Of a DNA stretch of 64,000 nucleotides, positions 36,433 through 52,420 are shown piece after piece. Source of the DNA: an uncultured bacterium (GTDB taxonomy: Bacteria; Bacillota_I; Bacilli_A; RFN20; CAG-826); the NCBI GenBank assembly GCA_949288485.1, contig CASEKC010000003.1:62001-126000 (forward strand), written 5' to 3'. The stretch's first letter is position 1. Every line of letters starts with the position of its first letter. The position numbers and the translations under genes are program-made. Under the pieces are notes generated by a model, which saw nothing but the letters and a program-made list of their open reading frames with translations, ran no database searches and was not told where the DNA came from.

Positions 36433-36436
36433 TTTT

Positions 36437-37016: not shown

Positions 37017-37080
37017 ACCGTCCTCAGTTTGAAATAGGAATAGGTAGTAGACAATTTATATATTATAGGCTTAAAAAAAT

Positions 37081-37099
37081 GAGGATTTGTTAGATCCTC
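37081..37099. terminator. Bidirectional terminator
   Basis: GAGGAT/ATCCTC stem with a 7-nt loop, A run before and T run after, between two converging genes. Confidence 0.8.
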
Positions 37100-37118
37100 T
37101 TTTTTTATTCCATGATAT

Positions 37119-38552
37119 TTATTCTTTGATATTTATTCTTTCAGAATATTTATGTTTCAAAATGTATTTCCAGTTTTCAACTGTATTACAATATTCTGCG
37201 AAATAATAATTAAATAATTTTTTATGGAAATCATAACTTTCATTTTTAAAGTTATTATTTACGACACCAGTAATTGTTTTGTTATATACGTCATCAGTAA
37301 TATCAATATGTAATTTGCTGCTATCGAGTCTATCTTGGATTGTATCTTTAATCTTGTAGGCAGTATTGATTATAATTTCTTTTTGTGGCGTTTTAGTCTC
37401 ATCTTCTAAAACTTGTAGGGCAACTATACCATGAAATTCTGGTTCGTCAATCCAAACCGCATATTTATTGTCATCTAAATTTTCAAGAGTCTTTTTCGTT
37501 TTGGTGATGACATTTTGTTTGTTAAAAAGATTGTTGTAAAGATAGAAGAAGTCTTTTGCCGATAAATTATGATCGGTTTCTTCTAATCTGTCGCTAATAA
37601 GTTGTTTTTGGGTTTGTTTGTCATAGGTTTCCCAGTCATCATAAGTATTCATACAATAATTTTTTGCTTTATTAAATTGATGATAATTGATGCTCAAAAA
37701 ATTGGCGGTGACTTTAAAAGGAATATTATTCTTTTTAAATTCTTCGATCGTTTCACCTTCATATAATAAAGCTTCAATTACTTCTGTTGGAACATTTGGC
37801 ACATCAAACGATTTATCGTATTCAGGATTACGACAATGTTTAATATAAGAATAAACTTCATCATCGTTAAAATGGTCAAAAGCATTAATCATTTCTTTTT
37901 TGTCATTAAATTCTTCATAAAACTTATAAGCATAATTTTTGTAATAAGAAAAATATTGATCAAATAATTCTTTAGTAGTTTCTTTTGAAGGAAGTTTTAA
38001 TGCTTCATTTAATAATGCGTTCCCTTTAAAAAAGATTTCGCCTTCGTTTGTAAAAGAAGGAGTTTCTTTTTCATCATTTTCAGCTGATAAATTTTGTTCA
38101 GGTGGAATAGATAAATTTACACTAAAATTTGCTAGTTCTTTAATTAGTTCATCATTATTATCTGAATAAATTAAAACTTTATTTGATAATAAAGAATCCT
38201 CTTTTTTAGCTAGTAAATTAACAAAATCATGTTCTTTTCCTTCTAAGTTGTTAAAAGGTTTTTTAATAAAAATTATAGAAGTTAAATTATTATTAATTGC
38301 TCTTCTTAAAATTTCTTTATTAAAAGAGCCATCTTCTAAATTTAATTTAAAAATGATGCCTGAATTTAATGCTTTGGTAGAAAGCTCCATGGTTTCTAAA
38401 TTATCATTTTCTAATTCTGAATTAGTAAATTTAGGTAAACCAAAGAAGTGGATAAAATGATTATCTATAATATCTATATTACCTACAACTTCGCAATAAT
38501 ATTCTCTCTTTTTGCCACTAAATGATCCAATTTGATATTCAAAATCTGACAT
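37119..38552 (-). CDS. Unknown protein, 477 aa, under a shared-type promoter
   Basis: A large soluble acidic protein. The first 160 residues look like an alpha/beta domain (I-D-I-I-D-N-H-F-I-H-F-F-G-L and S-N-K-V-L-I-Y-S-D-N-N-D-E), the rest is helical. No known motif. It has the same promoter and the same 27-nt leader hairpin as the ArdC operon, so it is probably an early transfer function, perhaps one acting in the recipient. It stands alone. Confidence 0.65.
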   Translation of the reverse strand: MSDFEYQIGSFSGKKREYYCEVVGNIDIIDNHFIHFFGLPKFTNSELENDNLETMELSTKALNSGIIFKLNLEDGSFNKEILRRAINNNLTSIIFIKKPFNNLEGKEHDFVNLLAKKEDSLLSNKVLIYSDNNDELIKELANFSVNLSIPPEQNLSAENDEKETPSFTNEGEIFFKGNALLNEALKLPSKETTKELFDQYFSYYKNYAYKFYEEFNDKKEMINAFDHFNDDEVYSYIKHCRNPEYDKSFDVPNVPTEVIEALLYEGETIEEFKKNNIPFKVTANFLSINYHQFNKAKNYCMNTYDDWETYDKQTQKQLISDRLEETDHNLSAKDFFYLYNNLFNKQNVITKTKKTLENLDDNKYAVWIDEPEFHGIVALQVLEDETKTPQKEIIINTAYKIKDTIQDRLDSSKLHIDITDDVYNKTITGVVNNNFKNESYDFHKKLFNYYFAEYCNTVENWKYILKHKYSERINIKE

Positions 38553-38570
38553 AATTTTATATCCTAACTC

Positions 38571-38597
38571 GAAAACACGAGACTTCGATTGTGTTTA
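38571..38597 (-). repeat. 27-nt leader repeat, copy 2
   Basis: Identical to 26370-26396 and at almost the same distance from the -10 box. Forms AAACAC/GTGTTT hairpin at the mRNA 5' end. Confidence 0.85.
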
Positions 38598-38600
38598 GAT

Positions 38601-38641
38601 TATTATTGGGAAAAAGAGAATTCATGTGTGCTCAGATAAAT
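38601..38641 (-). promoter_or_regulatory. Shared-type promoter P3 (477-aa gene)
   Basis: On the minus strand: ATTTATCTGAG (38631-38641), 24 nt, ATAATA (38601-38606). The -10 is the weakest of the set. Confidence 0.75.
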
Positions 38642-38645
38642 ATAT

Positions 38646-38669
38646 TATCATATTAATATTAATATGATA
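38646..38669. promoter_or_regulatory. 24-bp perfect palindrome between divergent promoters
   Basis: The half site is TATCATATTAAT and its exact inverse follows with no gap. It lies between promoter P3 and the HipA-like module, a position typical for an operator. It includes ATGATA, as in the 10-mer ATGATATTAT seen upstream of other element genes. Confidence 0.55.
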
Positions 38670-38730
38670 TTATTTTAATTGCGTTTAATTTTAGATTAAT
38701 GTATAATATTCGTGTTAAGGAGGTATAAAT

Positions 38731-38988
38731 ATGGCTCAAGAACATTCTGAATTTCGTGAAGTAGAATTTCGCTATGGTTTTTCTTTTCCTTGGTTTATGC
38801 TTCCTTCTGAAGTTCAACAAGCGATAGATGAATTAGAACATTCATTAGAAGTTCATGATTTGATGGATGATTGTCATTTAGCATATTTACAATCACTAAT
38901 GGAAGTTCGATATGAATCTTTAGGTTTGTTAATATCACGAGAAATAGCAGAACGATATGATTTAGCTTTGCCTGAATATTATCGTTAA
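38731..38988 (+). CDS. Small partner protein of HipA-like kinase, module 1
   Basis: 85 residues, acidic and helical (E-V-Q-Q-A-I-D-E-L-E-H-S-L-E). It has AAGGAGG at good distance and is followed at once by the kinase gene, whose Shine-Dalgarno overlaps its stop. Its place matches that of an antitoxin, but it lacks an obvious DNA-binding motif. A gene of similar size precedes the second HipA-like kinase at 61354. Confidence 0.6.
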   Translation: MAQEHSEFREVEFRYGFSFPWFMLPSEVQQAIDELEHSLEVHDLMDDCHLAYLQSLMEVRYESLGLLISREIAERYDLALPEYYR

Positions 38989-39001
38989 GGAGGATATGGT
39001 T

Positions 39002-40060
39002 ATGTTTATTTATGATTTTGATAAACTAGATATATCTAGAAAAGTATATGATGGATGTGAACCTAAAACTTGTTTAAGTGATGGAAGACATTTTTATGTC
39101 TTAAAAGAACCTAGACCAATGAAAGGCAATATTCCAAGTAGTAGAAAAGATCAACAAGCCGAATATTATTATAATTGTATAAGTGAATATTTAGGTTCTG
39201 AAATTTTTAATCTTTGTGGAATAGAAACTCAAAAAACATATTTAGGAAACTTTACTTGTCATGATGGTGTAAAAAGACTTTGCGTTGCATGTGAAGATTT
39301 TACAACTGATGAAAAATATTTGGATCTTGATACAGGTAAAACAAGTGTTTTGTTAATTTCAATGGCGATGTATAAGCATGATTTTAAAAGACAAGGAACA
39401 AATGATGATACATTAGTTGGAAGAGAAGATGGTGATGCTTATTTAGATGAACTTGATTATATTTGGCTTAACTCTAAATATTTAAAAGATAAATATGAAA
39501 AAATTAAAAAAGAGTATTACAATCGTTTTGTTGTTGACGCTTTAATTGGAAATCCAGATAGGCATAATGGAAACTGGGGATTTTTAGTCCCTGCTAGCGG
39601 AGATGAAAAAATAAAAGAAATTTTTAAAATATCACCTGTCTATGATTGCGGTGCATCTTTTTTATCTCAAGCTAATTCTAATCGACTTGTAGAAGTTTTA
39701 AATTCAAAAGAATTATTACAAACAAGATTTAATGATTTTCCAAAAACTCAAGTTTCTCCTAGATTACAAAACGGATTAACAGGAATAAAGTTCGGTTCTT
39801 ATTTTAACTCTTTAGAAAACGAAGAGCTTAATAAGGCGATTATTGAAATGACTCCGAAAATAAAAGAAGTATTACCTGATATTTATGATTTAATTGATGA
39901 TATGGTTTATTCGGAAGTTATAAGTAAAAGTAGAGGCAATTTTTATAAAACATTTATTGAAGGCAGATTTAATAATATAATTCTTTCATCGTATTTAAAA
40001 TTAGAAAAAGTGAGTGATTGTTCTATTGATAAAGAAAAAGATGATGAAATGGAACGCTAA
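39002..40060 (+). CDS. HipA-like Ser/Thr kinase, module 1
   Basis: 352 residues from ATG 39002, eight bases after AGGAGG; the ATG at 38996 is too close to that site. The catalytic loop reads G-N-P-D-R-H-N-G-N-W-G (Asp186) and the metal motif is Y-D-C-G, as in HipA/CtkA kinases. The N-terminal part has K-E-P-R-P-M as possible ATP-loop region. HipA kinases arrest growth by phosphorylating translation factors; relatives have other targets. With the small upstream gene it resembles a toxin-antitoxin or maintenance module. Confidence 0.8.
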   Translation: MFIYDFDKLDISRKVYDGCEPKTCLSDGRHFYVLKEPRPMKGNIPSSRKDQQAEYYYNCISEYLGSEIFNLCGIETQKTYLGNFTCHDGVKRLCVACEDFTTDEKYLDLDTGKTSVLLISMAMYKHDFKRQGTNDDTLVGREDGDAYLDELDYIWLNSKYLKDKYEKIKKEYYNRFVVDALIGNPDRHNGNWGFLVPASGDEKIKEIFKISPVYDCGASFLSQANSNRLVEVLNSKELLQTRFNDFPKTQVSPRLQNGLTGIKFGSYFNSLENEELNKAIIEMTPKIKEVLPDIYDLIDDMVYSEVISKSRGNFYKTFIEGRFNNIILSSYLKLEKVSDCSIDKEKDDEMER

Positions 40061-40110
40061 AAATAGTATAATAAATTTACCATAAAAAAGATTTTTTGTT
40101 GGAAAAGAAA

Positions 40111-40132
40111 AGAGGGAATTGCCGTTCCCTCT
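40111..40132. terminator. Bidirectional terminator
   Basis: AGAGGGAA/TTCCCTCT with a 6-nt loop, A-rich before and T run after, between the converging kinase and VirD4 genes. Confidence 0.85.
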
Positions 40133-40134
40133 TT

Positions 40135-42705
40135 TTAAAACATATTAGTTAATGAATCCAAGTTATTTGTACATTCTGTAATTATTAATTCGTTTTCTGT
40201 GTATGTATGTTCCTTTTTTTCTTGTCTTTCTTTATTTGATTTTGGGAAAGAGAAATTATCTCTTTTTACATTTATTTTTTTAGAAGATTCTTCAGACTTT
40301 TTATATGTGTTCGGATTAAAATTTTCCATAAATTCATTAACGGTATTATTAACTATTGTTCCAATCGATGCTTGATGTTTTGCTGATTCTGCTTTTTTAA
40401 GAAGGAAACGTTTTCTATTTCGTTGATTTTGTTCTCTTATTTTTTGTATTTCAATTGTTTCTTTGTTAATTCCTCTTGCGTTTTTAGCACTAGATGAAGT
40501 TGGTTTATTATCATCTTTCTTTTTTTGCGAAATATCATAGAAAGTATCTCTTTCAGAATAAATAATTTCTTTTTTTGTTGCATCAACAAATCCTTTTTGA
40601 AATAAACCTATCTTATTTGCTACTTTATTAAAATAAGGAACAAAATTAGTTTTACATGGATCTTCTCTAAATAATTTAAAGTAGGCTGTTCCTGTAATCA
40701 TGTTAGTAAGTTGGTTCATTGGAACAATATCTCTACTCGTTAAAGAGTAATTAGCATTAATGTTTCCACTATTCAAATCTTTTGAGGAATTAGAAGAAGA
40801 ACGAGTAACAATTGTTTCTTTTCCTAATTCACCGTGGAAATATTTAACTGTTTCAATGTCTGATGAACCTAAATATAGATGGATAGCACAGTTTGATAAT
40901 ATTGATGAACCTTCCTCTTTGCCGTAAATTGAATATAATTGTGAAACTGATTGTAAAATAATATCAAAATAAATCCATCTTGAACGACAAGCTCCAGTCC
41001 ATTGTTTAAATTCTTTAATTTTAGGCATTTGGGCAAACTCATCTAAATAAAAGTAAGCTTTTCTTTTTAAATGGTCATCTTTTGATTCAGTGGCAAGATA
41101 AATCATAAAGTTATATAACTGTTTAATTAATAATGTTGCAATAGGATATTTTGTAGAGTTTTCATCAGGAATAGTAATAAATAATGCAACTGGTTTTTCT
41201 CCTTCAATAATATCCTTTAAATCGAAATCTGAGCCACTGGTTATATATGTAATTCCACTTGTAAGATATTCTTTTAAAAGCGAATTAGTGTTTGAGATAT
41301 AAGATGATACTGTTTTTTCTGATTCGTTATCAATAATAACTGCAGCAGCTGTCATTGCTCTTGATGTTTTTTTATCTCTATTTTTTAACCATCCAGGCAT
41401 GTCTGATGCCATTTTATTAATAATATTTCCTATATTGTTAATGGTAAATTTTTCTAAGGTCATGTTGTTTTCTGCTTTCGTCGAATCTTCAAGCATCGCC
41501 CAAATACATCCTTCGATAATACCACGAGAACCGCTATTCCATGTTTGGTTTTCTCCAGAACCTTCAGGAATAATAGTCGAAGATAAAGCAAGAATTTCTG
41601 TTGTTACCTTATCAATTAATGATGAATTCTTTAAAATTTCTAAACAAAATAAAACGTTGTTTTGCTTATTCTCGGTCGTGCAAACATAAAATTTTGAAGT
41701 TTCATTATCGACCGTTATAGACATTTTAAATTGAGGAAATCCATTTACTGTTTTTGAAAAAAAGATATTACGATTTTTACTAGAAATAATAATTTTTGAT
41801 TTATCGTCTTTAACAAAAGATATTTTTAACTGATCAAAGATAATTACGTTTTCTTGTTTTGCTAAATTGAAACTTATTACATCTTTAGTTACATTACCAA
41901 TGACTTTTCTGAAAGTGAATTCATCTAAATATGTATGATAATATCTCCACATCAATTCTAATGGATTAAAACGAGTTGAAGAACGCTCATTTCTAAGGTT
42001 AATGTTATAAATTTTATAACCGTTATCACTTAATTTTTTTGAAAGATTATTAAAGAGTTCACCTTTAACATCGTTAATGATCATTGTTGGTTTTTCATCA
42101 CTTAATGAATTAAGTAATATGTTAGGCATTAAAAAGTATTGAGTTTTACCAACACCAGGAGAACCTATTGTAACCATGTTGACATCTCTTGTTAACATTA
42201 AGTATTTAAATTTATTAAACGAAATTTTTGAACTAACAAGCCATCCACTTTTTTCACAATATTTTTTCTTTATAAACCTTTTAAAAAATCTAAAAAGTTT
42301 TCTGTTTGAAAGTTTTGAAGGTGGATAAGAATAATAATTTCTCCCTTTTCTTCCAAACTGTTTAATCATTTCGTCTTCACTCATTAATTTTGAATTTCCA
42401 TAAGCATCTGTTTTAGCTTTAGAATATCCTTGAACAAATTTAGCTGGATTATTGAATTTATATTTAAGTGAATAAAAAATATTGATAACGAGAAAAAGAA
42501 CGGCACCTACAATACTTGTAATAATTGGCAATGTATTTTTATAACTTATTAATACATTTGACCAACCAAATTCAAAACCAATAACAGAATTTGTTTCTTT
42601 GTAATAAATTAAAAGTGCATCTAACACTATTCCTAAAAAGTAAAATAAACCAACTACTATAAGAAATAAAAATAAAGTAAATATTATCCTTTTAAAAATC
42701 CTCAT
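40135..42705 (-). CDS. virD4: VirD4/TraG-type coupling protein (T4CP)
   Basis: 856 residues. Two N-terminal membrane helices (about 5-35 and 60-80), Walker A G-S-P-G-V-G-K-T at about 182-189, Walker B Y-L-D-E-F-A-Q near 555 and the T4CP signature W-T-G-A-C-R-S-R-W. It couples the relaxase-DNA complex to the secretion channel. Between about residues 245 and 345 there is a beta-rich insertion not seen in standard VirD4 proteins. The C-terminal 200 residues are Lys/Asn/Ser-rich and probably disordered. It overlaps the relaxase gene by 14 bp. Confidence 0.93.
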   Translation of the reverse strand: MRIFKRIIFTLFLFLIVVGLFYFLGIVLDALLIYYKETNSVIGFEFGWSNVLISYKNTLPIITSIVGAVLFLVINIFYSLKYKFNNPAKFVQGYSKAKTDAYGNSKLMSEDEMIKQFGRKGRNYYSYPPSKLSNRKLFRFFKRFIKKKYCEKSGWLVSSKISFNKFKYLMLTRDVNMVTIGSPGVGKTQYFLMPNILLNSLSDEKPTMIINDVKGELFNNLSKKLSDNGYKIYNINLRNERSSTRFNPLELMWRYYHTYLDEFTFRKVIGNVTKDVISFNLAKQENVIIFDQLKISFVKDDKSKIIISSKNRNIFFSKTVNGFPQFKMSITVDNETSKFYVCTTENKQNNVLFCLEILKNSSLIDKVTTEILALSSTIIPEGSGENQTWNSGSRGIIEGCIWAMLEDSTKAENNMTLEKFTINNIGNIINKMASDMPGWLKNRDKKTSRAMTAAAVIIDNESEKTVSSYISNTNSLLKEYLTSGITYITSGSDFDLKDIIEGEKPVALFITIPDENSTKYPIATLLIKQLYNFMIYLATESKDDHLKRKAYFYLDEFAQMPKIKEFKQWTGACRSRWIYFDIILQSVSQLYSIYGKEEGSSILSNCAIHLYLGSSDIETVKYFHGELGKETIVTRSSSNSSKDLNSGNINANYSLTSRDIVPMNQLTNMITGTAYFKLFREDPCKTNFVPYFNKVANKIGLFQKGFVDATKKEIIYSERDTFYDISQKKKDDNKPTSSSAKNARGINKETIEIQKIREQNQRNRKRFLLKKAESAKHQASIGTIVNNTVNEFMENFNPNTYKKSEESSKKINVKRDNFSFPKSNKERQEKKEHTYTENELIITECTNNLDSLTNMF

Positions 42706-43903
42706 GAAAAATTTCTCCTATTTTTTCTTTATATTCTTCAATCTCTTGTTCAGCAATTAAATCATCAAGAGTTGCATAATCCTTTTTAAATAATGGATAC
42801 TCTACTAATCCATTTATTAATTCGTTCAATAAGCGATTACTTTCTTTTTCTAGTTGCTTATTTTCAATTGCTTTAGAACGAATAAGACCAATGTCATTTG
42901 CATAGATTTTTCTTGATTTACTAATTTTATGAGTTCGTTTTGCTTCTCTTGTTTTTTTATTATAAGCAAGAGTAGCAAGAGCTAGATCGCCAAATCTATT
43001 ATGTAATTTCTCTAGTTGATCCTCTTTAAACTTTGAATGCTTTTTAATATATTCTTCGGACTCATTAGCTTGACCAATTGCTATATAATTTTCTTGTATT
43101 AAATTAAGTGTATTTTCAAATTCATCTTTAATCATTTTTAAGTTAGGATTTGTCTCGAAAATTTTGTCAATGAAAAAATTTACTTTGGCTTTTTTATCCT
43201 CTGATAAATCTTTATATTTTTTAACTGAAAAATCTTGAATTTCGTTTGCTACTTGAGTTGCTAATTCAGAAGCGGAAAGCATCCTTGTTTCTTGTTTAAA
43301 TAAACCAGTAACTGCATTCTTAAAATTATAATCATATTTATTTTTTATTATCTCTTCTGTGACGATAGACCTATACATATCTAATGTCTTTTTTTGTATT
43401 TTTGGATGCACTTCACTTTTATATCTTAAGTTACCATTTGAATCTTTAAATAGTTTTTCTTTTTCGAAAAATTTTATATGAGCGTGAATGTGTTCTCTGT
43501 CTGTGTGAATACCAGCAATCCACTCAACATTATCTGGTTTGAAACCAGCCATTTTTAAAAATTTATTGAATGTACTTTGGATTGCGTTTTTAGCTGTATC
43601 AGCATCTTGAATGAAATCTGAAACTTGTTTTCCAAAAGAGAAGATGCAGTCATAAACTGGAACATCTAATTCTCGAGATGCTTTTCTAATTTCTTTTATA
43701 TCTTGTTTTGTAAAATCTTTTTCACCATTAAAAAGAGCGGCTCTTTCTCCAACGTATTGTTCAAAGTTATATGATTGTTCATCGTGAGCCCATCTTGATC
43801 TAGCAACTAAACGCCTTTCTTTATTTGTGGTTGGCAAATAATTTTTTGGATAAGATTTTAGATATTCGACTCTAAAAAAATTGCCTAAATATTTGTCTGC
43901 CAT
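42692..43903 (-). CDS. mobL: MobL-type relaxase
   Basis: 403 residues. The HUH metal site is His133-x4-His138-x-His140-x-His142 (G-I-H-T-D-R-E-H-I-H-A-H), with upstream blocks (S-F-G-K-Q-V and a candidate nucleophile Tyr nearer the N-terminus) in the order of MobL/MobP relaxases. The C-terminal half is a long coiled coil. It should nick the transfer origin, which is probably in the gap at 44336-44816, and pilot the strand. Operon: accessory protein, relaxase, VirD4. Confidence 0.85.
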   Translation of the reverse strand: MADKYLGNFFRVEYLKSYPKNYLPTTNKERRLVARSRWAHDEQSYNFEQYVGERAALFNGEKDFTKQDIKEIRKASRELDVPVYDCIFSFGKQVSDFIQDADTAKNAIQSTFNKFLKMAGFKPDNVEWIAGIHTDREHIHAHIKFFEKEKLFKDSNGNLRYKSEVHPKIQKKTLDMYRSIVTEEIIKNKYDYNFKNAVTGLFKQETRMLSASELATQVANEIQDFSVKKYKDLSEDKKAKVNFFIDKIFETNPNLKMIKDEFENTLNLIQENYIAIGQANESEEYIKKHSKFKEDQLEKLHNRFGDLALATLAYNKKTREAKRTHKISKSRKIYANDIGLIRSKAIENKQLEKESNRLLNELINGLVEYPLFKKDYATLDDLIAEQEIEEYKEKIGEIFHEDF

Positions 43904-43906
43904 TTA

Positions 43907-44335
43907 TTATTCACCATCCCTTATTTCATTAATATAATCAATAACTTTTTCTAACTGAAATTTTTCAATCATGTATGTATTTTTGATACCGAAATTATTT
44001 GGAGGAAGAAGTTTCTCAGGGTTAATATTTTGATATTTGTAATATAGCTTTAAAGACTCTAAAACAACATTTGTATAAACAAAATTTTGGATACTCCATG
44101 AAGTAATTGTTGTTATCCTTTTATTTATATCAACAATAGTATTTTCAATTGTTTTTAACTCTTCTTTAATATCTCTTATTGATGATGTTAATTCATTTGA
44201 ACCTAATGAATGTTCAAGCATTTCGTTAATAATTTTTGTAGATGGTTTTCCAGTGGCTTTTTTAAAACTTTCTATTTCCTTTAAGACTTCGTCATTGGTA
44301 ATTCTTAATTTAAAAATGTTATTCATGTATTTCAA
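43907..44335 (-). CDS. Relaxase accessory protein (MobC/RHH-like)
   Basis: 142 residues. Residues 8-45 (I-F-K-L-R-I-T-N-D-E-V-L-K-E-I-E-S-F-K-K) have a ribbon strand plus two helices as in RHH relaxosome proteins, followed by a coiled coil and a C-terminal domain. AGGAGG lies ahead of the start. Proteins in this position bind repeats at oriT and help the relaxase nick. It is first in the transfer-processing operon. Confidence 0.7.
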   Translation of the reverse strand: MKYMNNIFKLRITNDEVLKEIESFKKATGKPSTKIINEMLEHSLGSNELTSSIRDIKEELKTIENTIVDINKRITTITSWSIQNFVYTNVVLESLKLYYKYQNINPEKLLPPNNFGIKNTYMIEKFQLEKVIDYINEIRDGE

Positions 44336-44362
44336 TTTTCCTCCTAATTTTTTATCAACTTG

Positions 44363-44403
44363 ATTATATCAAAAGAAGGAAAAATCGACTTTCTCAGATA
44401 AAT
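44363..44403 (-). promoter_or_regulatory. Shared-type promoter P4 (relaxase/VirD4 operon)
   Basis: On the minus strand: ATTTATCTGAG (44393-44403), 24 nt, TATAAT (44363-44368). Confidence 0.85.
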
Positions 44404-44429
44404 GAATAAATTTTTTAAAAATTTTTCAA

Positions 44430-44455
44430 AATTTATTTCTATTGAGAAATAAATT
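44430..44455. repeat. 11-bp inverted repeat in the oriT region
   Basis: AATTTATTTCT/AGAAATAAATT with an ATTG loop. AT-rich and perfect; suited to cruciform or single-strand folding. Confidence 0.7.
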
Positions 44456-44470
44456 CATAAGACAAGAGGA

Positions 44471-44690
44471 ACTTTTTGTGGTCAAAAATTTTTATATATA
44501 TATTTCCGTATGGAAATATATATATAAGAACACTAGGTACTTTTTGTGGCAAAAGGACTTTTTGTGGTCTACTAAATAATCAAAAAAGTATCGATGGTTA
44601 TCGCATTTTTTTGATATGGTACCTTTTTGTGGTCGCTTAAATTAAATAATAATTATTATAACAGGATAAGGGAAATGGAACTTTTTGTGG
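44471..44690 (+). repeat. Five direct CTTTTTGTGG iterons
   Basis: Copies of (A/C)CTTTTTGTGG start at 44471, 44539, 44557, 44622 and 44680, each preceded by GG within a few bases. All are in the same orientation with irregular spacing. They look like binding sites of a replication or relaxosome protein. Confidence 0.8.
44492..44527. repeat. 16-bp perfect inverted repeat
   Basis: Arms ending TTTCC and starting GGAAA around the centre GTAT, with alternating TA in the outer stem. The strongest hairpin of the gap; a candidate relaxase recognition hairpin or lagging-strand origin. Confidence 0.75.
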
Positions 44691-44710
44691 CTCACACAAA
44701 AAAGTAGTCC

Positions 44711-44751
44711 ATTTATCTGAGCCGACATGAATTTTCAAAATGTTGTAAACT
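44711..44751 (+). promoter_or_regulatory. Shared-type promoter P5 (fibre/shufflon operon)
   Basis: ATTTATCTGAG (44711-44721), 24 nt, TAAACT (44746-44751). The 11-mer and the next nine bases are the same as in P2. Confidence 0.8.
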
Positions 44752-44816
44752 ACTGGCGATGAGTAGAGATGAGTCGAAAATTCAAGTTAGTTTTTAATTG
44801 ATGAAAGGAGTTTTAG

Positions 44817-45203
44817 ATGCAAGTTTTATCATTGTTATTCACTAATGTCTTAGTCGAACTTTCCGACAATGCAATGGAAATTATTAGAATGATAGTTACT
44901 ATTGCAAATTATTTATTGCCTACTGTTGGTGCTATCGTTGCAGTTGTATTTTTAGTTAAAACTGTTATCAAAGCCTTAGAAATGAGTAAGGCAAAATCTA
45001 GTGGGGATCAACAAGGTTATCAACATGCTAAAGATGGAGTTATTTGGAGTGTTGTTACTACATTAGGTTGTTTATCTATTGCTATTGTATTTGGATTTGC
45101 AACTGACATTGTTGCCTTAATCTATCCAGAATTTGGTGAATATATTAATGGTTTAGAACAAGGAGCTGAAACTGTTAGTTTAGTTGTCAACTCATTAATT
45201 TAA
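44817..45203 (+). CDS. Small two/three-helix membrane protein, VirB2/pilin-like
   Basis: 128 residues. Three hydrophobic segments (about 1-15, 25-50, 75-105) surround a short polar loop (S-K-A-K-S-S-G-D-Q-Q-G). The layout resembles VirB2/TrbC-type prepilins and small pilin-like proteins of Gram-positive type IV secretion clusters. AAAGGAG precedes the start. It is first in the fibre operon under promoter P5, so it may form the channel or a pilus core. Confidence 0.65.
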   Translation: MQVLSLLFTNVLVELSDNAMEIIRMIVTIANYLLPTVGAIVAVVFLVKTVIKALEMSKAKSSGDQQGYQHAKDGVIWSVVTTLGCLSIAIVFGFATDIVALIYPEFGEYINGLEQGAETVSLVVNSLI

Positions 45204-45267
45204 AATTCAAATTTGTCATCTCTCTCGGAAAAGAATTTTTGTTATTGCAGGAGGAAATTAAGTTATT

Positions 45268-45762
45268 ATGAAAAAAACAAAAATTACAGTTTTAAGTGCT
45301 TTAGCTTGTGGAGCAATTGTAGCAGGAGGTTTTGCTGCATGGACATTTTCTGGTGATGCCAGTAGTGCTCAAACATTAGGAGTTAGTATTGCTACTGCAA
45401 ATGAAAGTGGTAATGTTGCGATTGAAGCTGAAGGTACATTACAACTTGATCAAGGTTCTATTACATGGGATAGCTTTGATGTTAAAGCAACTTACACAGG
45501 TGGAAGTGATTCAACAGAAAATACTGATGGTACTGTTGTTAGAACCTACACTGTTTCATTAGATGATGCTTTAGATGATTATATTGAAATTTCAGCAAAT
45601 GCAAGTGGTAATTGGACAGATGGAACAACTATTACAGCTCCAACATTTGCTTGGGTAAACGAACCACATAATATGACAGAATATAACACAATGAAATCTG
45701 CTATTGAAAACTCCAAGATTACATTTACATTCTCAGCAGATTGGACAGATACTGCTGAATAA
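45268..45762 (+). CDS. TasA/camelysin-like fibre subunit A
   Basis: 164 residues. The N-terminus K-K-T-K...V-A-G-G-F-A-A-W-T-F-S-G-D-A-S-S-A has the long, weakly cut signal typical of SipW substrates such as TasA (G-G-G-T-W-A-A-F-N-D). The mature part is Cys-free, acidic, Thr/Ser-rich and beta-predicted. It aligns with the next gene product over K-A-T-Y-(T/V)-G-G, L-D-x-Y, W-x-D-G and N-x-x-E/D-Y blocks. A dedicated signal peptidase follows two genes later. Probable major subunit of an extracellular fibre. Confidence 0.75.
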   Translation: MKKTKITVLSALACGAIVAGGFAAWTFSGDASSAQTLGVSIATANESGNVAIEAEGTLQLDQGSITWDSFDVKATYTGGSDSTENTDGTVVRTYTVSLDDALDDYIEISANASGNWTDGTTITAPTFAWVNEPHNMTEYNTMKSAIENSKITFTFSADWTDTAE

Positions 45763-45775
45763 TTAGATATTAACT

Positions 45776-46324
45776 ATGAGAAATAAAGCAAAGATAGGAA
45801 TAGTAACTCTATCTTCGCTTGGAATTGTTGCTTACTTGCTTTGTGGGGTGGGAATTCTCACCTCACAACAAGTTGCGTTAGATAACGCAGGATCGCTTGG
45901 TGTTCATTATGATTCTGACAGTGATAATGTAGTTATTGAAAACGGCTCTTCTAATGGCGAAAATGTTGAGCCAAATCCTGATGAAGATTATGAAAATTAT
46001 GAAGGTAAAGCATTGTTATTTTTGAATGATAATGAAGTATCCTTAGTCGGCCAATTAAAAGCAACTTACGTGGGCGGAGAAAATGTCAACCGTTACTATG
46101 TAATTGAGATGAGTGAAGAGCTTGATAGGTACGTAAAAGTTTCTGAAAGTGAAACCTTTAGATGGGAAGATGGAGTTCCTATTAATCCTAAATTTGAATT
46201 TAAGACTAATATGAATCCACAGAATTATGATGAATACTTAAAGCTACTTAAAAACTTTGAAGAAGATAAACCTTATTTAAGAATTAAATTTGGAGTTGCT
46301 ATAAATGAAGGAGGTAATAATTAA
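45776..46324 (+). CDS. Fibre subunit B, paralogue of subunit A
   Basis: 182 residues. A signal-like hydrophobic N-terminus (I-V-T-L-S-S-L-G-I-V-A-Y-L-L-C-G-V-G), an acidic Asn/Asp/Glu linker, and a domain matching subunit A (K-A-T-Y-V-G-G, L-D-R-Y-V-K-V-S, W-E-D-G-V-P-I, N-P-Q-N-Y-D-E-Y, L-R-I-K-F). Probably a minor subunit or fibre adaptor. Its stop shares a base with the signal peptidase start. Confidence 0.7.
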   Translation: MRNKAKIGIVTLSSLGIVAYLLCGVGILTSQQVALDNAGSLGVHYDSDSDNVVIENGSSNGENVEPNPDEDYENYEGKALLFLNDNEVSLVGQLKATYVGGENVNRYYVIEMSEELDRYVKVSESETFRWEDGVPINPKFEFKTNMNPQNYDEYLKLLKNFEEDKPYLRIKFGVAINEGGNN

Positions 46325-47610
46325 TGACTAGTTTAGAAATATTTAATTTAATAGTTTACATTGTTTTAGCTTTAGTAATATTTTCCTTCTTCTTTTTAGC
46401 AGTTAAAGTTTGGTTTAATTCTGAAAGTGAATTAATCGGAGTTGGAAAATATGATGATGAAATTAGAAAGAATAAAAAGAAAAAAGAACATAAAATTTGG
46501 AAATATGTAAGAAATGTTCTTTCAGCTGTTTTATTAGGTGGCGTCCTTGGTTTAGCTATAACATTATTTGTTACAACAACCGTTAAAGAATCGATTAACG
46601 TAATTGGAACAGCACCTATCTCTATTCTTTCAGGTTCAATGTCAGAAAAAAATCATTTGAATGAATATTTATTTGAAAATGATTTAAATGATCAATTCAA
46701 TGAAGGTGATTTAATTTTATTAGATAAATTACCTGAACAAGATGATTTAGAGTTATATGACATCGTTGGTTATTTTAATAGCGATGGAGAATTAGTTGTT
46801 CATAGAATAATCGGTGGAGGATATTATGATGAACAAAATGTTTTCCATTATGTAGATAATCTTGATGATGCAGAAAACTACATTATGAGAGGTGATGCTA
46901 ATAATAATTCTGATAGTATTTATATTACTTATGACGACATGTATGGAATTTATGATGGATATAAAATTCCATATTGCGGATTTGTAACACAATATCTTCA
47001 ATCAGGATTCGGAATTGTTTCTTTATGTGGTATTGCAGGCATTATTTTCTCTTATGATTATTATGTTGATAAATATAATAAAAAATATAATGCTAGAAAA
47101 GATGAAGTTAGTGAAGAAGAACCAAATATTGATTCTGAAAATACATCTGAACTAAGCGTAGAAGAAAAAGATGTTGAATTATTAAACGAACCTGATTATT
47201 TACAAATCGGTGAATCAACTGGCGAAGTTTCTGATGAACTAGAAGCAGAACAAGAAGATACCTTTACCGATTTAGAAAAAGATTTAGCTGAAGAAGCAGA
47301 TATTAATGGAGAAATAACTGAAGATATTCCTCAAGATGTTAATTCTAACGATGAAATAAATATCGTTGATTTAAAAGAAGAGGAAGGATTACAAGATGAT
47401 AATTCTTTAAATAAAACTGATAAAGAATCAGAACAAGCTAATGTTAGTGATATTGATATCGAAGAATTAAATATAAATGAATCTACCTTTGAATTCAAAA
47501 AAGACGAAGAGGAAGTTGAAAAGAAAGAAAAGATTAATAAAGATGATTATTTGTATGGTGAAAGAAACGAGAAAGATGTTCGTTCTACCGTAAAACGTTT
47601 AAATAAATAA
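46324..47610 (+). CDS. sipW: SipW-type signal peptidase I with acidic tail
   Basis: 428 residues. Membrane helices at about 5-30, 62-85 and 222-245. The catalytic Ser105 lies in L-S-G-S-M and the second residue is His160 in V-V-H-R-I, the Ser-His dyad of SipW/ER-type enzymes rather than the Ser-Lys of ordinary LepB. M-R-G-D-A-N-N forms the conserved later box. A cytoplasmic tail of 170 residues, mostly Glu/Asp, is not found in B. subtilis SipW. It should mature the fibre subunits and the shufflon protein encoded around it. Confidence 0.9.
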   Translation: MTSLEIFNLIVYIVLALVIFSFFFLAVKVWFNSESELIGVGKYDDEIRKNKKKKEHKIWKYVRNVLSAVLLGGVLGLAITLFVTTTVKESINVIGTAPISILSGSMSEKNHLNEYLFENDLNDQFNEGDLILLDKLPEQDDLELYDIVGYFNSDGELVVHRIIGGGYYDEQNVFHYVDNLDDAENYIMRGDANNNSDSIYITYDDMYGIYDGYKIPYCGFVTQYLQSGFGIVSLCGIAGIIFSYDYYVDKYNKKYNARKDEVSEEEPNIDSENTSELSVEEKDVELLNEPDYLQIGESTGEVSDELEAEQEDTFTDLEKDLAEEADINGEITEDIPQDVNSNDEINIVDLKEEEGLQDDNSLNKTDKESEQANVSDIDIEELNINESTFEFKKDEEEVEKKEKINKDDYLYGERNEKDVRSTVKRLNK

Positions 47611-47613
47611 TTT

Positions 47614-47937
47614 ATGAATAAACAAGAAGTTGATTGTTTAGTTAGACAATGTGCAGATGCTTTGGAGGATAACGGATTTATAGATAAAAAAGAAATAGGA
47701 CAAAAAGGCAGGGTACAATTATTTTTATTAAACTTATGTGATGTTGTATCACCTTCCTATCTTGAATATTGTGTTAAGGATTTTATTAATTTTCACAATA
47801 ATCATCCTAAAAATATAAAGAAAAAATATAATTATCTAACTAATTCTTTATCTAAAAACATTGTTTCATCTAACAATTTAAAAAAATATAGAGAAATCAT
47901 CGAATTAATCAACAAATATAATCAGGAGGTTAAATAA
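47614..47937 (+). CDS. Unknown small protein, 107 aa, in the fibre operon
   Basis: A helical, basic, cytoplasmic-looking protein with C-L-V-R-Q-C near the start and a K-K-K-Y-N-Y-L-T patch. No family recognised. It lies 3 bp after the signal peptidase and 2 bp before the shufflon gene, so it is co-translated with them. Confidence 0.55.
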   Translation: MNKQEVDCLVRQCADALEDNGFIDKKEIGQKGRVQLFLLNLCDVVSPSYLEYCVKDFINFHNNHPKNIKKKYNYLTNSLSKNIVSSNNLKKYREIIELINKYNQEVK

Positions 47938-47939
47938 GT

Positions 47940-49391
47940 ATGAATTTTAAAAGTAAATTTGCCATAATTTTAGCTTCAACCTCCATTGCTTTAGGTACTG
48001 GTGGAGGTTTAGCTACGTGGCAATATTCAAAAGATGCTTCTGCCGCTCATGATCATCATATTCATATTGGAGACTTTGTTTTTAATACGATACAAATTAC
48101 CGAAAGTCCAAATTCTTCCGCTGGAACATTAAGTAAAACACTTAATTCTACTAACAACATAAGATGTGACGGACAACCTTTAGGATTTGTTGGCGGTCAA
48201 ATAGATTTAACGCAATATTTTACCGTTACACCTTTAGAAGGAGTCTCTCAAACAAACAATTTATTATTTTCCATACAAAGTGGTGAAGGTAGGATATCTG
48301 GCAATACTCTTATCGGTGGAGAAACAAGTGGCAATATTGTAGTACGAGCTTATGAAGAAGGGTATGAAGATAATTATTTAGATTTAACGTTTACAAACAA
48401 TTTAACAGTTAATAAAAGCGAACATCAAAGCGTACGAACATACACAAATATTTCTTGGGGAAATCGGAGTTCTTATACATCAACTTCAAGTACACACACA
48501 AGAACAAGAACTGGTACATTATCTTATAATGATAATTGTTCAGTATGTGGTAGTAATTTAGGTAGTGGAAGTGTCGAAGTAAATACTTCTAATTACGATA
48601 GTTATGCAACTTACGATACAACTGGATTAGGAGCAACACAAAGTGGCAACCATAATATGATAAGAAGTTATGGAACTATTTCTTGGGGCAGTTGGAGTGA
48701 TTATTCTCAATACGGTAGTTCTCAACATCAAAGAACAAGAACTGGTACATTATCTTATACAGAAAGTTGCTCAGATTGTGGTAGAAGTGGAAATAGTGGT
48801 TCTATTACTATTAACTCTAGTAATTATTCAACTTACGCTCAATACAACACTTCATCATCTACGTATCAAGAAATAGAAAGTTGCAATGATGATAAGAGTT
48901 CTTATGTAAGTAGTTCTACTAGTAGCACTTATTGGGGTAGTTGGACAGATTCTGGTTCTGAATATTCAGAAGTCACAAGAGAACCAACTTGTACTTCGAC
49001 AGGAACTAGAACTACATATCAAGACCAAACTAGAAGTGGATATTATTATAGATATGCTTCTGGCTATAACTATTATTGTGATTGTTGTAATAGATTTATG
49101 AGATCTACTGGACAAGGTAGTACAAGAGTTGATACATCAGATAGTAGAACTCTAACTGTTGGTAGTAGTACTATATCAGCAACAGGACACTCATACGGAA
49201 GTTCGAGTGATAAAGAAGAGTACACATCAATGGGTTCTTCTGGTCATCAAATAGATCATTATCAAATTTGTAAAAACTGTGGCTATGAACATTATACATA
49301 CACTTCAACAGATGGTCATACATGGGGTGAAAGACACTATGGATCGTATACTCAAATTTATTGTACTTATTGTGGATATGTAAAAAGTTAA
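47940..49391 (+). CDS. Secreted shufflon-tipped fibre/adhesin protein with tail 1
   Basis: 483 residues. The N-terminus (A-L-G-T-G-G-G-L-A-T-W-Q-Y-S-K-D-A-S-A) is a SipW-type signal. Residues about 40-160 form a beta domain; 164-240 and 240-316 are two copies of a Thr/Ser/Tyr-rich repeat, each with R-T-R-T-G-T-L-S-Y and a C-x-x-C-G pair; two further C-x-x-C pairs follow. The constant part ends at I-S-A-T-G-H (residues 412-417), encoded by recombination site S1, after which the last residues form the variable tail with C-K-N-C-G and C-T-Y-C-G. Like PilV of R64 it would be the tip that meets the recipient cell; that role is inferred. Confidence 0.85.
   Translation: MNFKSKFAIILASTSIALGTGGGLATWQYSKDASAAHDHHIHIGDFVFNTIQITESPNSSAGTLSKTLNSTNNIRCDGQPLGFVGGQIDLTQYFTVTPLEGVSQTNNLLFSIQSGEGRISGNTLIGGETSGNIVVRAYEEGYEDNYLDLTFTNNLTVNKSEHQSVRTYTNISWGNRSSYTSTSSTHTRTRTGTLSYNDNCSVCGSNLGSGSVEVNTSNYDSYATYDTTGLGATQSGNHNMIRSYGTISWGSWSDYSQYGSSQHQRTRTGTLSYTESCSDCGRSGNSGSITINSSNYSTYAQYNTSSSTYQEIESCNDDKSSYVSSSTSSTYWGSWTDSGSEYSEVTREPTCTSTGTRTTYQDQTRSGYYYRYASGYNYYCDCCNRFMRSTGQGSTRVDTSDSRTLTVGSSTISATGHSYGSSSDKEEYTSMGSSGHQIDHYQICKNCGYEHYTYTSTDGHTWGERHYGSYTQIYCTYCGYVKS
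48501..48759 (+). repeat. 28-bp direct repeat inside the constant region
   Basis: Identical 28-bp copies at 48501-48528 and 48732-48759, 231 bp (77 codons) apart and in the same frame. They are the DNA core of the two protein repeats, so recombination between them would remove exactly one repeat unit without a frameshift. Confidence 0.85.
49172..49190 (+). repeat. Shufflon recombination site S1
   Basis: TATATCAGCAACAGGACAC, plus orientation, at the constant/variable border (codons 412-417 start at 49173). 14 of 19 positions are invariant among the four sites. Confidence 0.9.
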
Positions 49392-49393
49392 TT

Positions 49394-49412
49394 TATATCA
49401 GCACTAGGTCAT
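49394..49412 (+). repeat. Shufflon recombination site S2
   Basis: TATATCAGCACTAGGTCAT, plus orientation, 2 bp after the stop of tail 1; opens tail 2. Confidence 0.9.
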
Positions 49413-49640
49413 TCTTGGTCTTATACGGGCTCATCCAAATATAGTTATTATAGTAAGGGCGGTTGTCAAGAAATGGGTGAAAGAGAATGTTCAAGATGCC
49501 ACGATACAGAATGGGTTGGAAGAGGTATTGGAAGTCATAGTATCTTTACAATAACTTCTTACGGATCACAATATCTAGGTCAATGTTCCAAATGTGGTCA
49601 TCAAGGAACCTATGATGGTTCATCAAATAGTTTTAACTAA
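49395..49640 (+). CDS. Silent shufflon tail 2 (81 codons, no start)
   Basis: The open frame runs from the site codons I-S-A-L-G-H through S-W-S-Y-T-G to TAA 49638-49640. It carries C-S-R-C-H and C-S-K-C-G-H pairs and many Gly/Ser/Tyr. There is no ATG with a ribosome site and no promoter, so it is expressed only if recombination joins it to the constant region. The Cys spacing and amino acid use match the tails in the other segments. Confidence 0.85.
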   Translation: MSALGHSWSYTGSSKYSYYSKGGCQEMGERECSRCHDTEWVGRGIGSHSIFTITSYGSQYLGQCSKCGHQGTYDGSSNSFN

Positions 49641-49646
49641 TTTTTT

Positions 49647-49665
49647 TATATCAGCACTCGGACAC
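49647..49665 (+). repeat. Shufflon recombination site S3
   Basis: TATATCAGCACTCGGACAC, plus orientation, 6 bp after the stop of tail 2; opens tail 3. Confidence 0.9.
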
Positions 49666-49986
49666 ATAAAAGGAACTTATCATATTAATAGAACAACATA
49701 TGCTAATAGACAACATATGACTACAGCATGGTGGGATTGTGCAAGATGTGGAGGCATTTACGAAACAGTTAATGCAGGAACTGTAGAATCTTGCACTGGA
49801 ATAGTAAAAGAGACTGGATATCGTTCTAATTCAAGTCAACATTGGACTTATACAATATATGAATGCCAATATTGCAATGGAAGTTGGACTGTAGAAGGAA
49901 CAAAGAGAAGTCACACAGGCGATAGTGATCCTACTGGCAATCCAGCAGCAAAAACATGCACTGTTTGTGGAACAGTTTATTATTAA
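49648..49986 (+). CDS. Silent shufflon tail 3 (112 codons, no start)
   Basis: Frame from I-S-A-L-G-H-I-K-G to TAA 49984-49986. It has C-A-R-C-G-G, C-Q-Y-C-N-G and C-T-V-C-G pairs, so three possible zinc knuckles. The longest tail of the set. Any upstream ATG in the same frame would read noncoding sequence out of register with tail 2, so it is not an independent gene. Confidence 0.85.
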   Translation: MSALGHIKGTYHINRTTYANRQHMTTAWWDCARCGGIYETVNAGTVESCTGIVKETGYRSNSSQHWTYTIYECQYCNGSWTVEGTKRSHTGDSDPTGNPAAKTCTVCGTVYY

Positions 49987-49993
49987 AAAAAGA

Positions 49994-50017
49994 GCGGATT
50001 TATTTCCGCCCTTTTTT
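49994..50017. terminator. Terminator between tails 3 and 4, usable in both directions
   Basis: GCGGA/TCCGC core stem with A run before and T run after. It lies inside the invertible block and reads as a terminator from either side, which keeps transcription ending properly in either orientation. Confidence 0.75.
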
Positions 50018-50064
50018 ATGATGTAAAAGTATAACTGTTTAAATAATACTAATTTTTGACATAA

Positions 50065-50391
50065 CTAAGCTCGTTCCTGTTTTGTTTGACCACATTGAGT
50101 ACAAGTATAAATAATATAATTTCCTGCTTGAGTACCACTGTTCCAAGAATGTGCCAGAGTCGTTCTTTGAACATAATTACAATAACGACAAGATCTCTGT
50201 CTATAATGGTATGTTGAATTATATCTTGAATAAGTATAAGAACCGTAAGAACAAGCTGCTCTTGGATCACCCGCATCAGGTAAAGAATAATCGCAACGAG
50301 TGCATTCAGTATGGGTAACTCTTTGGTGATAACCATTATATTGAGAACTATATCTGGTTTCACTCTTCATATCATGTCCTAATGCTGATAT
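50065..50391 (-). CDS. Silent shufflon tail 4, inverted (108 codons, no start needed)
   Basis: On the minus strand the frame runs from I-S-A-L-G-H-D-M-K at site S4 to TAG at 50065-50067. It contains C-T-R-C-D, C-R-Y-C-N and C-T-Q-C-G pairs and an internal C. Its orientation opposite to tails 1-3 is the direct sign that inversion is the switching reaction. Confidence 0.85.
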   Translation of the reverse strand: MSALGHDMKSETRYSSQYNGYHQRVTHTECTRCDYSLPDAGDPRAACSYGSYTYSRYNSTYHYRQRSCRYCNYVQRTTLAHSWNSGTQAGNYIIYTCTQCGQTKQERA

Positions 50392-50392
50392 A
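50374..50392 (-). repeat. Shufflon recombination site S4 (inverted)
   Basis: On the minus strand TATATCAGCATTAGGACAT. It ends 1 bp before the recombinase stop codon. Confidence 0.9.
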
Positions 50393-50393
50393 A

Positions 50394-51335
50394 TTAAAAA
50401 TATTTATATTTACTTACATTTTTGATTTTTCCTATTTTATTTTCTTCACAAATATCTGCATCAGAGATATTTACATATATTTCAGTTGTTTTAATTGACG
50501 AATGACCTAAAATAACTTTTAGTTTAAACATATTGCTATTATATTTAATCCAATCACTGGCAAATTTATGCCTTAAGTTGTGTGGAAATAATTTGTGATT
50601 TTTATTTATTTTTAACTTTATTGCAATTCGATAAAGTGACCTTCTAAAACTATCGTATTTATAAATTTTATTTTTATCTGAAAAGAATAAGTTGTCCGTA
50701 TTCCATTTATTATTAAGACTTCTCATTTCAATATATTTTTTTAATTCTTGAAGAATATTTTGATTAATCGGTACAAGCCTTTCTTTGTATGTTTTAGTAT
50801 TTCTAATTAATATAGTTTTGTTCTTTAAATCAATATCGTTCATTTTTAAATTTAGACATTCGTTGCATCTTAATCCACTTGTTAAAAGTATTAGAAAAAT
50901 AACTTTGTTTCTTAAATAAGGAAATGGATCTTTGCTTCTTTCAATGTTTCTATTATATAGATTTATTATTCTTTGAATCTCGTTGTCTTGAAGATAATAT
51001 TTAACTTTCTTTTCAAGTTTAAAAAGCATATAAGGTTTAAAGGGTATTGAACCGTTATAAAAATTAAAATCACTTAATTTTTGATAATAAGATTTTAATA
51101 TTGAATAAGCTTTATTTGCATATTCTTTACTAGTCTTAATAGAAAGTTCTGATAAGAAAGAAACAACTAAATCGGAATCAACATCATCTAAAGTTTTAAC
51201 TTTCTTAGAATTAAGATAGTCATAAAATAGATTAATAACTCTTTCATATCCTTTTTTAGTGCCATCTTTTAATTGATAAATAATTTTCTCAAAGTAAATA
51301 GTTTTTGCATTTGTAAGTTTTAATTTGTGTTTCAT
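50394..51335 (-). CDS. Tyrosine recombinase, probable shufflon invertase (Rci-like)
   Basis: 313 residues. An N-terminal SAM-like domain (about 15-90) and a catalytic domain with the complete set Arg156, Lys181, His252-x-x-Arg255, His278 and Tyr287 (L-P/F-P-H-N-L-R-H-K, L-G-H-S-S, E-I-Y). It is distinct from the ICE integrase at 21617 and lies against the last recombination site, exactly as rci does in R64. AGGAGG sits before the ATG. It probably recombines the 19-bp sites S1-S4; the activity is inferred from position and motifs. Confidence 0.85.
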   Translation of the reverse strand: MKHKLKLTNAKTIYFEKIIYQLKDGTKKGYERVINLFYDYLNSKKVKTLDDVDSDLVVSFLSELSIKTSKEYANKAYSILKSYYQKLSDFNFYNGSIPFKPYMLFKLEKKVKYYLQDNEIQRIINLYNRNIERSKDPFPYLRNKVIFLILLTSGLRCNECLNLKMNDIDLKNKTILIRNTKTYKERLVPINQNILQELKKYIEMRSLNNKWNTDNLFFSDKNKIYKYDSFRRSLYRIAIKLKINKNHKLFPHNLRHKFASDWIKYNSNMFKLKVILGHSSIKTTEIYVNISDADICEENKIGKIKNVSKYKYF

Positions 51336-51619
51336 TTATTCCTCCTAAAATTAAAAATGTATACTTTCAAATTTTATTAATTAAATACAAATATTTTAAA
51401 TAGAATAAATATCTATCTAGGAAAGAAAAACTTAAATATCACGATAAAATTCGTATTTTTTATATATTTTAAACTATTTAGAAAATTTGAAAAAATTTAC
51501 TTGCAAACTACAAAAATTGTAATTATAATATAGACATAAGATAAAAATTTGTAACTTAATTACAAAATTTATTTTAAAAAATAATTAAATGAGTTATTAA
51601 TTCGGAGGTACTTAATTTT
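51336..51619. promoter_or_regulatory. Divergent promoter region of recombinase and lipoprotein
   Basis: AT-rich spacer with a strong promoter toward the lipoprotein: TTGCAA (51501-51506), 17 nt, TATAAT (51524-51529). The mRNA leader of about 80 nt ends with GGAGG. No shared-type 11-mer is present, so this unit is controlled separately from the transfer operons. Confidence 0.7.
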
Positions 51620-52411
51620 ATGAGAAAAACACATTTATTATTATCATTAGCAGCTACAATGATCGTCGGAGGTACATTATCATCATGTAACAGCAACACA
51701 AAAGAAGTAGGTTCAAATTCTGTTTCAACTTTATCAGAAACAAAAAAAGAACAAGCTCTTGAAGAAATCGATGTAATTAATTGCGACTTAATTAAAGTTC
51801 CTACAGGTGCTTATTCTTCTTCTGTCTATTATAATGAAAAAACAAGTGATGGCAAGAATTTAGCAGAAATTCAACATGATATTGGAACAAGAATGATTGA
51901 AAATTTATCTTCTTATCTTTATAGACAAGCTACAACAACAAAAACTTTAAGTGAAGAAGTTTTAAAAGAAATTTTATCATTTGATTTTATCGCTTATCAT
52001 ACAAATGTTAATAATTTTGGTTCAACAGCCGTTGTTTATAATGATTTTATGAATAATGCTGGAAAAGGATTAGAAACAAGATTTGTTGATAACGAAGAAG
52101 TTATTGATCCATTATTAGATGAATTCTATTTTAATTATAAGGATTTAATGGCTCTTACAGGTGCTTATTCCAGTGATGTTTATTATATGAATGAAGAAAC
52201 ACCTGCTTTATCTAAAAACATTTATATCCAAATGCTCAATAACTTAAATGAGTATTTAATCACTACACTTGTTGATGGTGATGATGTAAATGAAGAGAAA
52301 GTTAAAGAAATTCTTTCAACAAAATTCATTGCTTATCATACAAACGTTAATAATTGGGGTAGAAATAGTACCGCTTATCGTAAGTTTGTTAATGGTGTTG
52401 AAAACCAATAA
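51620..52411 (+). CDS. Lipoprotein with a duplicated domain
   Basis: 263 residues. Signal peptide with lipobox L-S-S-C (Cys23). The mature part has two copies of a unit of about 100 residues, each with T-G-A-Y-S-S-x-V-Y-Y and F-I-A-Y-H-T-N-V-N-N-(F/W)-G. The family is unknown to me. With its own strong promoter and a surface position inside a conjugation cluster, it could serve surface exclusion or donor protection; this is only an inference from place. Confidence 0.7.
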   Translation: MRKTHLLLSLAATMIVGGTLSSCNSNTKEVGSNSVSTLSETKKEQALEEIDVINCDLIKVPTGAYSSSVYYNEKTSDGKNLAEIQHDIGTRMIENLSSYLYRQATTTKTLSEEVLKEILSFDFIAYHTNVNNFGSTAVVYNDFMNNAGKGLETRFVDNEEVIDPLLDEFYFNYKDLMALTGAYSSDVYYMNEETPALSKNIYIQMLNNLNEYLITTLVDGDDVNEEKVKEILSTKFIAYHTNVNNWGRNSTAYRKFVNGVENQ

Positions 52412-52420
52412 TTAATAGTT

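Follow-up and report, generated by a model that had tools for sequence, protein, structure and literature searches.

Relaxases of the MOBP class cut the sequence (C/T)ATCCTG(C/T) beside an inverted repeat (PMC3772185). On the other hand, plasmid pLS20 is nicked at GGGGGCCGG beside GGCTTTTTGC...GCAAAAAGCC (PMC5313138) and not at ATCCTG, and its accessory protein Aux2 has three TGTGCAT sites in oriT (PMC5675868). In SXT/R391 ICEs and MGIs, the SetCD boxes show the same layout as the 12-bp promoter box described below (PMC4344509). For the Firmicutes, a review published in 2017 listed no other elements than those of the MTnSag1 type, and their oriT probably has no relation to that of the helper (PMC5704250). 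Here we analysed a stretch of 64 kb from an uncultured member of the Bacilli, hereafter the window, and from this analysis we propose that the region 44336-44816 is very probably the oriT of a 56-kb conjugative element (a tRNA-Trp-integrated ICE), and that at least three smaller integrase elements devoid of a nicking enzyme carry near-copies of this oriT, with which they apparently hitch a ride.

The conjugative element and its relaxase operon

The source genome comprises 1.36 Mb in 15 contigs. The ICE begins at the 3' end of a tRNA-Trp gene (21422-21495) and its integrase is located at 21617; a 16-bp repeat, CCTTCCACCCCCGCCA, present at the 3' end of the tRNA gene, recurs at contig position about 139,242, which delimits an element of 55.8 kb. 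The region under study sits between two operons, one on the minus strand that encodes the RHH-like protein, the relaxase and VirD4, and another on the plus strand that begins with the pilin-like gene (Table 1). The VirB6-like and VirB4 genes are related to ICE genes of mollicutes, as indicated by profile matches.

The relaxase scores above the gathering threshold of PF18555 (28.5 bits), which places it in the MOBL family of pLS20; against the NCBIfam model MobP2 it reaches 35.5 bits, below the curated cut-off of 200, and its relatives score 98-116 bits. The catalytic tyrosine Y50, as well as H133, H140 and H142, are invariant in four homologues. A search of genome contigs for loci related to the relaxase found none, and PLSDB contained no plasmid with the oriT module or the relaxase. 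The RHH-like protein gave no significant profile match; its model (pLDDT 70, low confidence) shows a short N-terminus followed by two helices and a long helix, and the PDB searches returned only a weak match to Arc. A relative of 62 residues adjoins one of the module copies described below (L011). The protein is a probable relaxosome accessory factor.

Directly downstream of the pilin-like gene (45268-47610) there is a secreted protein that by eye looks like TasA/camelysin, together with a SipW-like signal peptidase (NF046067, below cut-off). The stretch 47940-50370 is richer in GC and includes a secreted-looking repeat protein rich in Ser, Thr, Tyr and Cys, as well as shorter similar ORFs on both strands; it is followed by a second tyrosine-recombinase-like ORF (50394-51335).

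Table 1. Positions of the features in the window (position 1 is its first nucleotide)
Feature	Position	Strand	Basis or remark
ICE part inside the window	21480..64000		From the tRNA-Trp 3' end; other end outside the window
VirD4/TraG coupling protein	40135..42705	-	Profile matches
MobL/MobP-type relaxase	42692..43903	-	PF18555 38 bits, PF03432 26.5 bits
RHH-like small protein	43907..44335	-	Pattern, low-confidence model, weak Arc match
Putative oriT-containing intergenic region	44336..44816		Repeats, copies, folding
Promoter box CATTTATCTGAG, RHH-like/relaxase/VirD4 operon	44393..44404	-	24 nt before TATAAT
Hairpin 1, 11 bp perfect, loop 4	44430..44455 (arms 44430-44440 / 44445-44455)		Exact
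Iteron 1 CTTTTTGTGG	44472..44481	+	Exact match; conserved in 4 copies
Hairpin 2, 16 bp perfect, loop 4	44492..44527 (arms 44492-44507 / 44512-44527)		Exact
Iteron 2 CTTTTTGTGG	44540..44549	+	Exact match; conserved in 4 copies
Iteron 3 CTTTTTGTGG	44558..44567	+	Exact match; conserved in 4 copies
Hairpin 3, resembles a common terminator hairpin of the genus	44579..44615		Folding, DNA matches in the genus
Iteron 4 CTTTTTGTGG	44623..44632	+	Exact match; conserved in 4 copies
Predicted nick site TATCCTG^T	44661..44668	-	Between bottom-strand bases opposite 44662 (G) and 44661 (T); consensus match and conservation
Nick-proximal inverted repeat AAATGGACTACTTTTTTGTG/TGAGC/CACAAAAAGTTCCATTT	44673..44714	-	17 pairs; ends 4 nt 5' of TATCCTG
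Iteron 5 CTTTTTGTGG, inner arm of the nick-proximal inverted repeat	44681..44690	+	Conserved in 4 copies
Promoter box CATTTATCTGAG, pilin operon	44710..44721	+	Overlaps the distal arm of the nick-proximal repeat
T4SS pilin-like protein	44817..45203	+	PF18895 24.1 bits, just under cut-off; NF045849 weak
VirB6-like ICE transmembrane protein (MMCAP2_0566 family)	54716..56854	+	Profile match
VirB4 ATPase (Mbov_0397 type)	56857..59682	+	Profile match

Repeats and the predicted nick site

A sequence-only reading of this DNA had noticed five copies of CTTTTTGTGG in the same direction and two perfect inverted repeats, one of 11 bp and another of 16 bp with a 4-nt loop, and all of them proved to be exact; the nick motif, the inverted repeat next to it and hairpin 3 had not been noticed. 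In the whole 64-kb window the ten bases of CTTTTTGTGG are matched 9 times versus 0.14 expected, and five of these matches fall within the region. Those at 7874, 7945 and 8065 are located inside a zinc-ribbon ORF and look like coding coincidences, since the codons of its CPFCG motif (TGT CCT TTT TGT GGA) give identical letters. When folded as single-stranded DNA, the 307-nt core does far better than its dinucleotide shuffles (z = -7.98). A search of Rfam returned only sub-threshold matches, and the sigma-70 and terminator scans gave nothing above chance. Short DNA matches to 44571-44617, present in many genomes of the genus, were set aside as an ordinary terminator-like hairpin, GCGATNNTTATCGC, and not the oriT module.

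The consensus (C/T)ATCCTG(C/T) occurs once in the window, inside this region and on the bottom strand. Directly 5' of it, on the strand predicted to be nicked, lies an inverted repeat that is the probable recognition hairpin of the relaxase; this pair of motifs, linked to a relaxase with the tyrosine and the three histidines, corresponds to the features of a MOBP-type oriT. The sequence-only reading had pointed to a comparison with related elements, and homologous copies of the module do exist at three other sites; in the alignment of the four copies the longest invariant run is a stretch of 21 nt, TTCCCTTATCCTGTTATAATA (44674-44654), centred on the consensus and lying exactly across the predicted nick.

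Conservation of the module and of its geometry

Two of the copies, L010 and L011, are located on another contig of the same genome, and the third belongs to a related species, G113 (L018/L047), on the public contig CALVYH010000008.1 of an "uncultured Bacilli bacterium". A search with the core in 224 genomes of the family found it in these two species only. Matches of the pattern in viral contigs look coincidental, since the surrounding sequence shows neither an iteron array nor a repeat. Iterons 1, 2 and 5 do not vary among the four copies, and 100% of the pairs of hairpins 1 and 2 are preserved, with one compensatory (double) change in each hairpin; the double changes, seen at three pairs among the four sequences, are suggestive of covariation, weakly so because only four copies are known.

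The geometry of the predicted nick site recurs in the vicinity of more distant relaxases. A relaxase profile built from three sequences detected relaxases in 14 of 279 genomes of the order, and the flanks of 17 loci, the window included, were scanned for (C/T)ATCCTG(C/T) right after an inverted repeat scoring at least 8. An inverted repeat followed by TATCCTG^Y was present near the relaxase gene in 6 of these 17 loci, versus 0.08 on average and at most 2 in dinucleotide shuffles; in L091, L092 and L094 it is located 32-35 bp beyond the end of the relaxase match. In L095 and L096, at the similar distance of 42-47 bp, an inverted repeat is followed by TTATCTTG^T. Neither form was found in the flanks read of nine of the 17 loci, therefore the rule is not universal; in two of these nine (L097 and L107) the repeats are arranged similarly, but TTATGC replaces TTATCC. 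The putative oriT of the ICE is upstream of the accessory gene, whereas most relatives with the site have it just past the relaxase stop codon. The loci of these relatives are independent evidence for the nick sequence and for the role of the repeat, and the comparative rule, i.e., an inverted repeat followed by TTATCCTG^T near the relaxase gene, predicts oriT in relatives. In several of them (L091-L107) a second small palindrome of the GGGTATCCC type, followed by TTGC, was observed upstream of the nick-proximal repeat.

A promoter box common to several operons of the element

The divergent promoters of a shared type mentioned in the sequence-only reading turned out to be real, in the form of a 12-bp box, CATTTATCTGAG, placed at a fixed distance of 24 nt from the -10 element. 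This box marks about a dozen promoters, those of ICE operons included (among them xis-int), and their -35 region lacks a good TTGACA. Allowing 0-2 mismatches, the box was found 24 nt before a -10 element at window positions 30595 (-), 38631 (-), 44393 (-), 44710 (+) and 54644 (+), and it also occurs in L008 at 1196 (-), 10139 (-), 10192 (+) and 10321 (+). The strict pattern ATTTATCTGAG-N23-25-TATAA has seven matches in the 1.36-Mb genome, all of them in the ICE or in the element around L010, versus 0 for the reversed control; in G113 there is one occurrence, ahead of its xis-int genes. The set of boxes is likely the regulon of one activator. When L010 (9350-10230) is compared with the window (44320-44816), the oriT core appears inverted relative to the flank that contains the promoter of the RHH-like gene, with the boxes at the ends, hence both boxes may have served as recombination points.

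Satellites without a relaxase

The three additional copies of the module adjoin genes for tyrosine integrases and no relaxase is found nearby; an integrase together with an ICE-like oriT and no relaxase is what characterises an oriT-only integrative mobilizable element. In G113 (L047) the module is accompanied by an intact integrase of 419 residues, by a small xis-like gene and a winged-helix-like one, and by an operon for type I restriction-modification; the genome of G113 gave no relaxase match. L011 has a short RHH-like ORF and adjoins type III restriction-modification genes, and L010, whose RHH-like gene is truncated, is located in a region that includes a GmrSD-like gene. The integrase frames of both L010 and L011 are interrupted, therefore these satellites may be decayed or the assemblies imperfect. 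The satellite integrases form a group of their own, being 74-93% identical to each other, and two of the three satellites carry the 12-bp box. Between L010 and L047 a flank of 6.5 kb is 95% identical, and the comparison suggests that the material located between this flank and the integrase is the variable cargo of the satellite. In L010, five tandem HTH genes (17884-19445) are about 49-59% identical to the RstR-like HTH protein of the ICE (window 30903-31259).

It could be argued that the additional copies are remnants of decayed ICEs instead of active oriT-only satellites, an explanation that is compatible with the region being an oriT. The interrupted integrases of the two copies that share a genome with the ICE agree with this idea, as do the truncated RHH-like gene of L010 and the DNA similarity between the ICE and L011, which runs on through the RHH-like gene. 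We consider it unlikely, given that G113 combines an intact integrase with a genome in which no relaxase was matched, that the integrases constitute a separate group, that the promoter box precedes satellite xis-int genes, and that in L047 the module is essentially the sole long DNA similarity with the ICE.

Other functions considered for the region

The sequence-only reading left the choice between oriT and oriV. The oriT half is sustained by the nick consensus beside an inverted repeat, the peak of conservation, the same arrangement at homologous relaxases and the presence of the module in relaxase-less elements. If the region were an oriV, a replication protein would bind the iterons and open the AT-rich hairpin region, and the excised ICE would replicate; the direct repeats do lie beside AT-rich sequence, and two of the satellite copies have a small winged-helix-like protein next to them. 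Nevertheless, no match to a DnaA box was found anywhere in the 64-kb window, the iterons are irregularly spaced (68, 18, 65 and 58 bp) and not regularly phased, conservation peaks at the nick site and not in the AT-rich DNA, and the ICE copy adjoins the relaxase operon with no recognised Rep gene next to it, all of which makes replication a highly improbable function. It is equally improbable that the region is only a divergent regulatory one, with two operator boxes, attenuator hairpins and repressor-binding repeats, in spite of the box at both ends that belongs to about a dozen promoters and of hairpin 3 resembling a terminator of the genus, given that regulation can coexist with an oriT flanked by the boxes, and that the nick consensus with its inverted repeat, their maximal conservation and the recurrence of this motif at homologous relaxases whose surrounding genes are arranged differently would be left unexplained.

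A possible mechanism of transfer

Considering the region as the oriT of the ICE, the relaxase would recognise the nick-proximal inverted repeat, nick the bottom strand at TATCCTG^T and stay bound to the 5' T. The strand would leave leftwards, so that the iteron and hairpin region, followed by the genes for the RHH-like protein, the relaxase and VirD4, would be the first to reach the recipient. The RHH-like protein, whose gene accompanies that of the relaxase, would probably coat the CTTTTTGTGG iterons and position the relaxase; its binding to these repeats is plausible by analogy with Aux2 of pLS20, and the relaxase remains as an alternative binder because the nick-proximal repeat has iteron 5 as one of its arms. 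As the single strand enters the recipient, the two AT-rich hairpins may have a role on it, for instance in priming or as an early promoter. The satellites would probably be excised and mobilised in trans upon activation of the ICE, since they carry near-copies of its oriT, and two of them also its promoter box.

Comparison with known systems

The region resembles the MOBP oriTs of RP4, Ti and H. pylori tfs4 (PMC3772185) in the nick core (C/T)ATCCTG(C/T) directly after an inverted repeat and near the relaxase gene; it differs from them in that the leading side of the nick contains another four iterons as well as two large AT-rich hairpins, in its divergent MobL/MobP2-like relaxase and in its host, a low-GC member of the Bacilli. 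With pLS20 (MOBL relaxase, RHH proteins Aux1 and Aux2; PMC5313138, PMC5675868) it shares a PF18555 relaxase, a small RHH-like gene between oriT and relaxase, and short direct repeats in oriT, TGTGCAT in pLS20 and CTTTTTGTGG here. However, the nick sequence of pLS20 is not present in the region, which has the ATCCTG type instead; this difference concerns the oriT and not the protein family. What is new, as a variant of known oriTs, would be that in Bacilli an iteron-rich oriT, with a MOBP-type nick and a MobL-like relaxase, is shared with satellites that have no relaxase. The analysis provides a base-precise predicted nick site for conjugation in uncultured low-GC Bacilli, in a system with a relaxase only distantly related to those studied.

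The oriT-only mobilizable elements iOriT and pOriT (PMC11389934) have, like the satellites described here, an integrase and an oriT but no relaxase; those described here differ in that they combine an ICE-like oriT with the promoter box, and occur in Bacilli. This suggests that in this group satellites devoid of a relaxase take advantage of an ICE both for its oriT and for its regulation; therefore, islands that appear immobile could be recognised as mobile by their oriT and box motifs. It seems reasonably likely that the ICE and its satellites constitute a helper-parasite system in uncultured Bacilli, a counterpart outside the Gammaproteobacteria of SXT/MGI and IncC/SGI1, in which the satellites possess copies of the oriT of the ICE and also of its activator-controlled promoter (box, 24 nt and -10), ahead of their own xis-int genes, with variable regions that contain restriction-modification genes. 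In the SXT/R391 ICE and MGI, and IncC and SGI1, pairs (PMC4344509, PMC4207636, PMC5704250), the satellites likewise have their own copy of the oriT of the helper (MGI) as well as boxes for the helper activator before their excision genes, and these boxes immediately precede a poor -35 and are also found back-to-back, as occurs here; those systems belong to another phylum and have relaxases of the MobH class.
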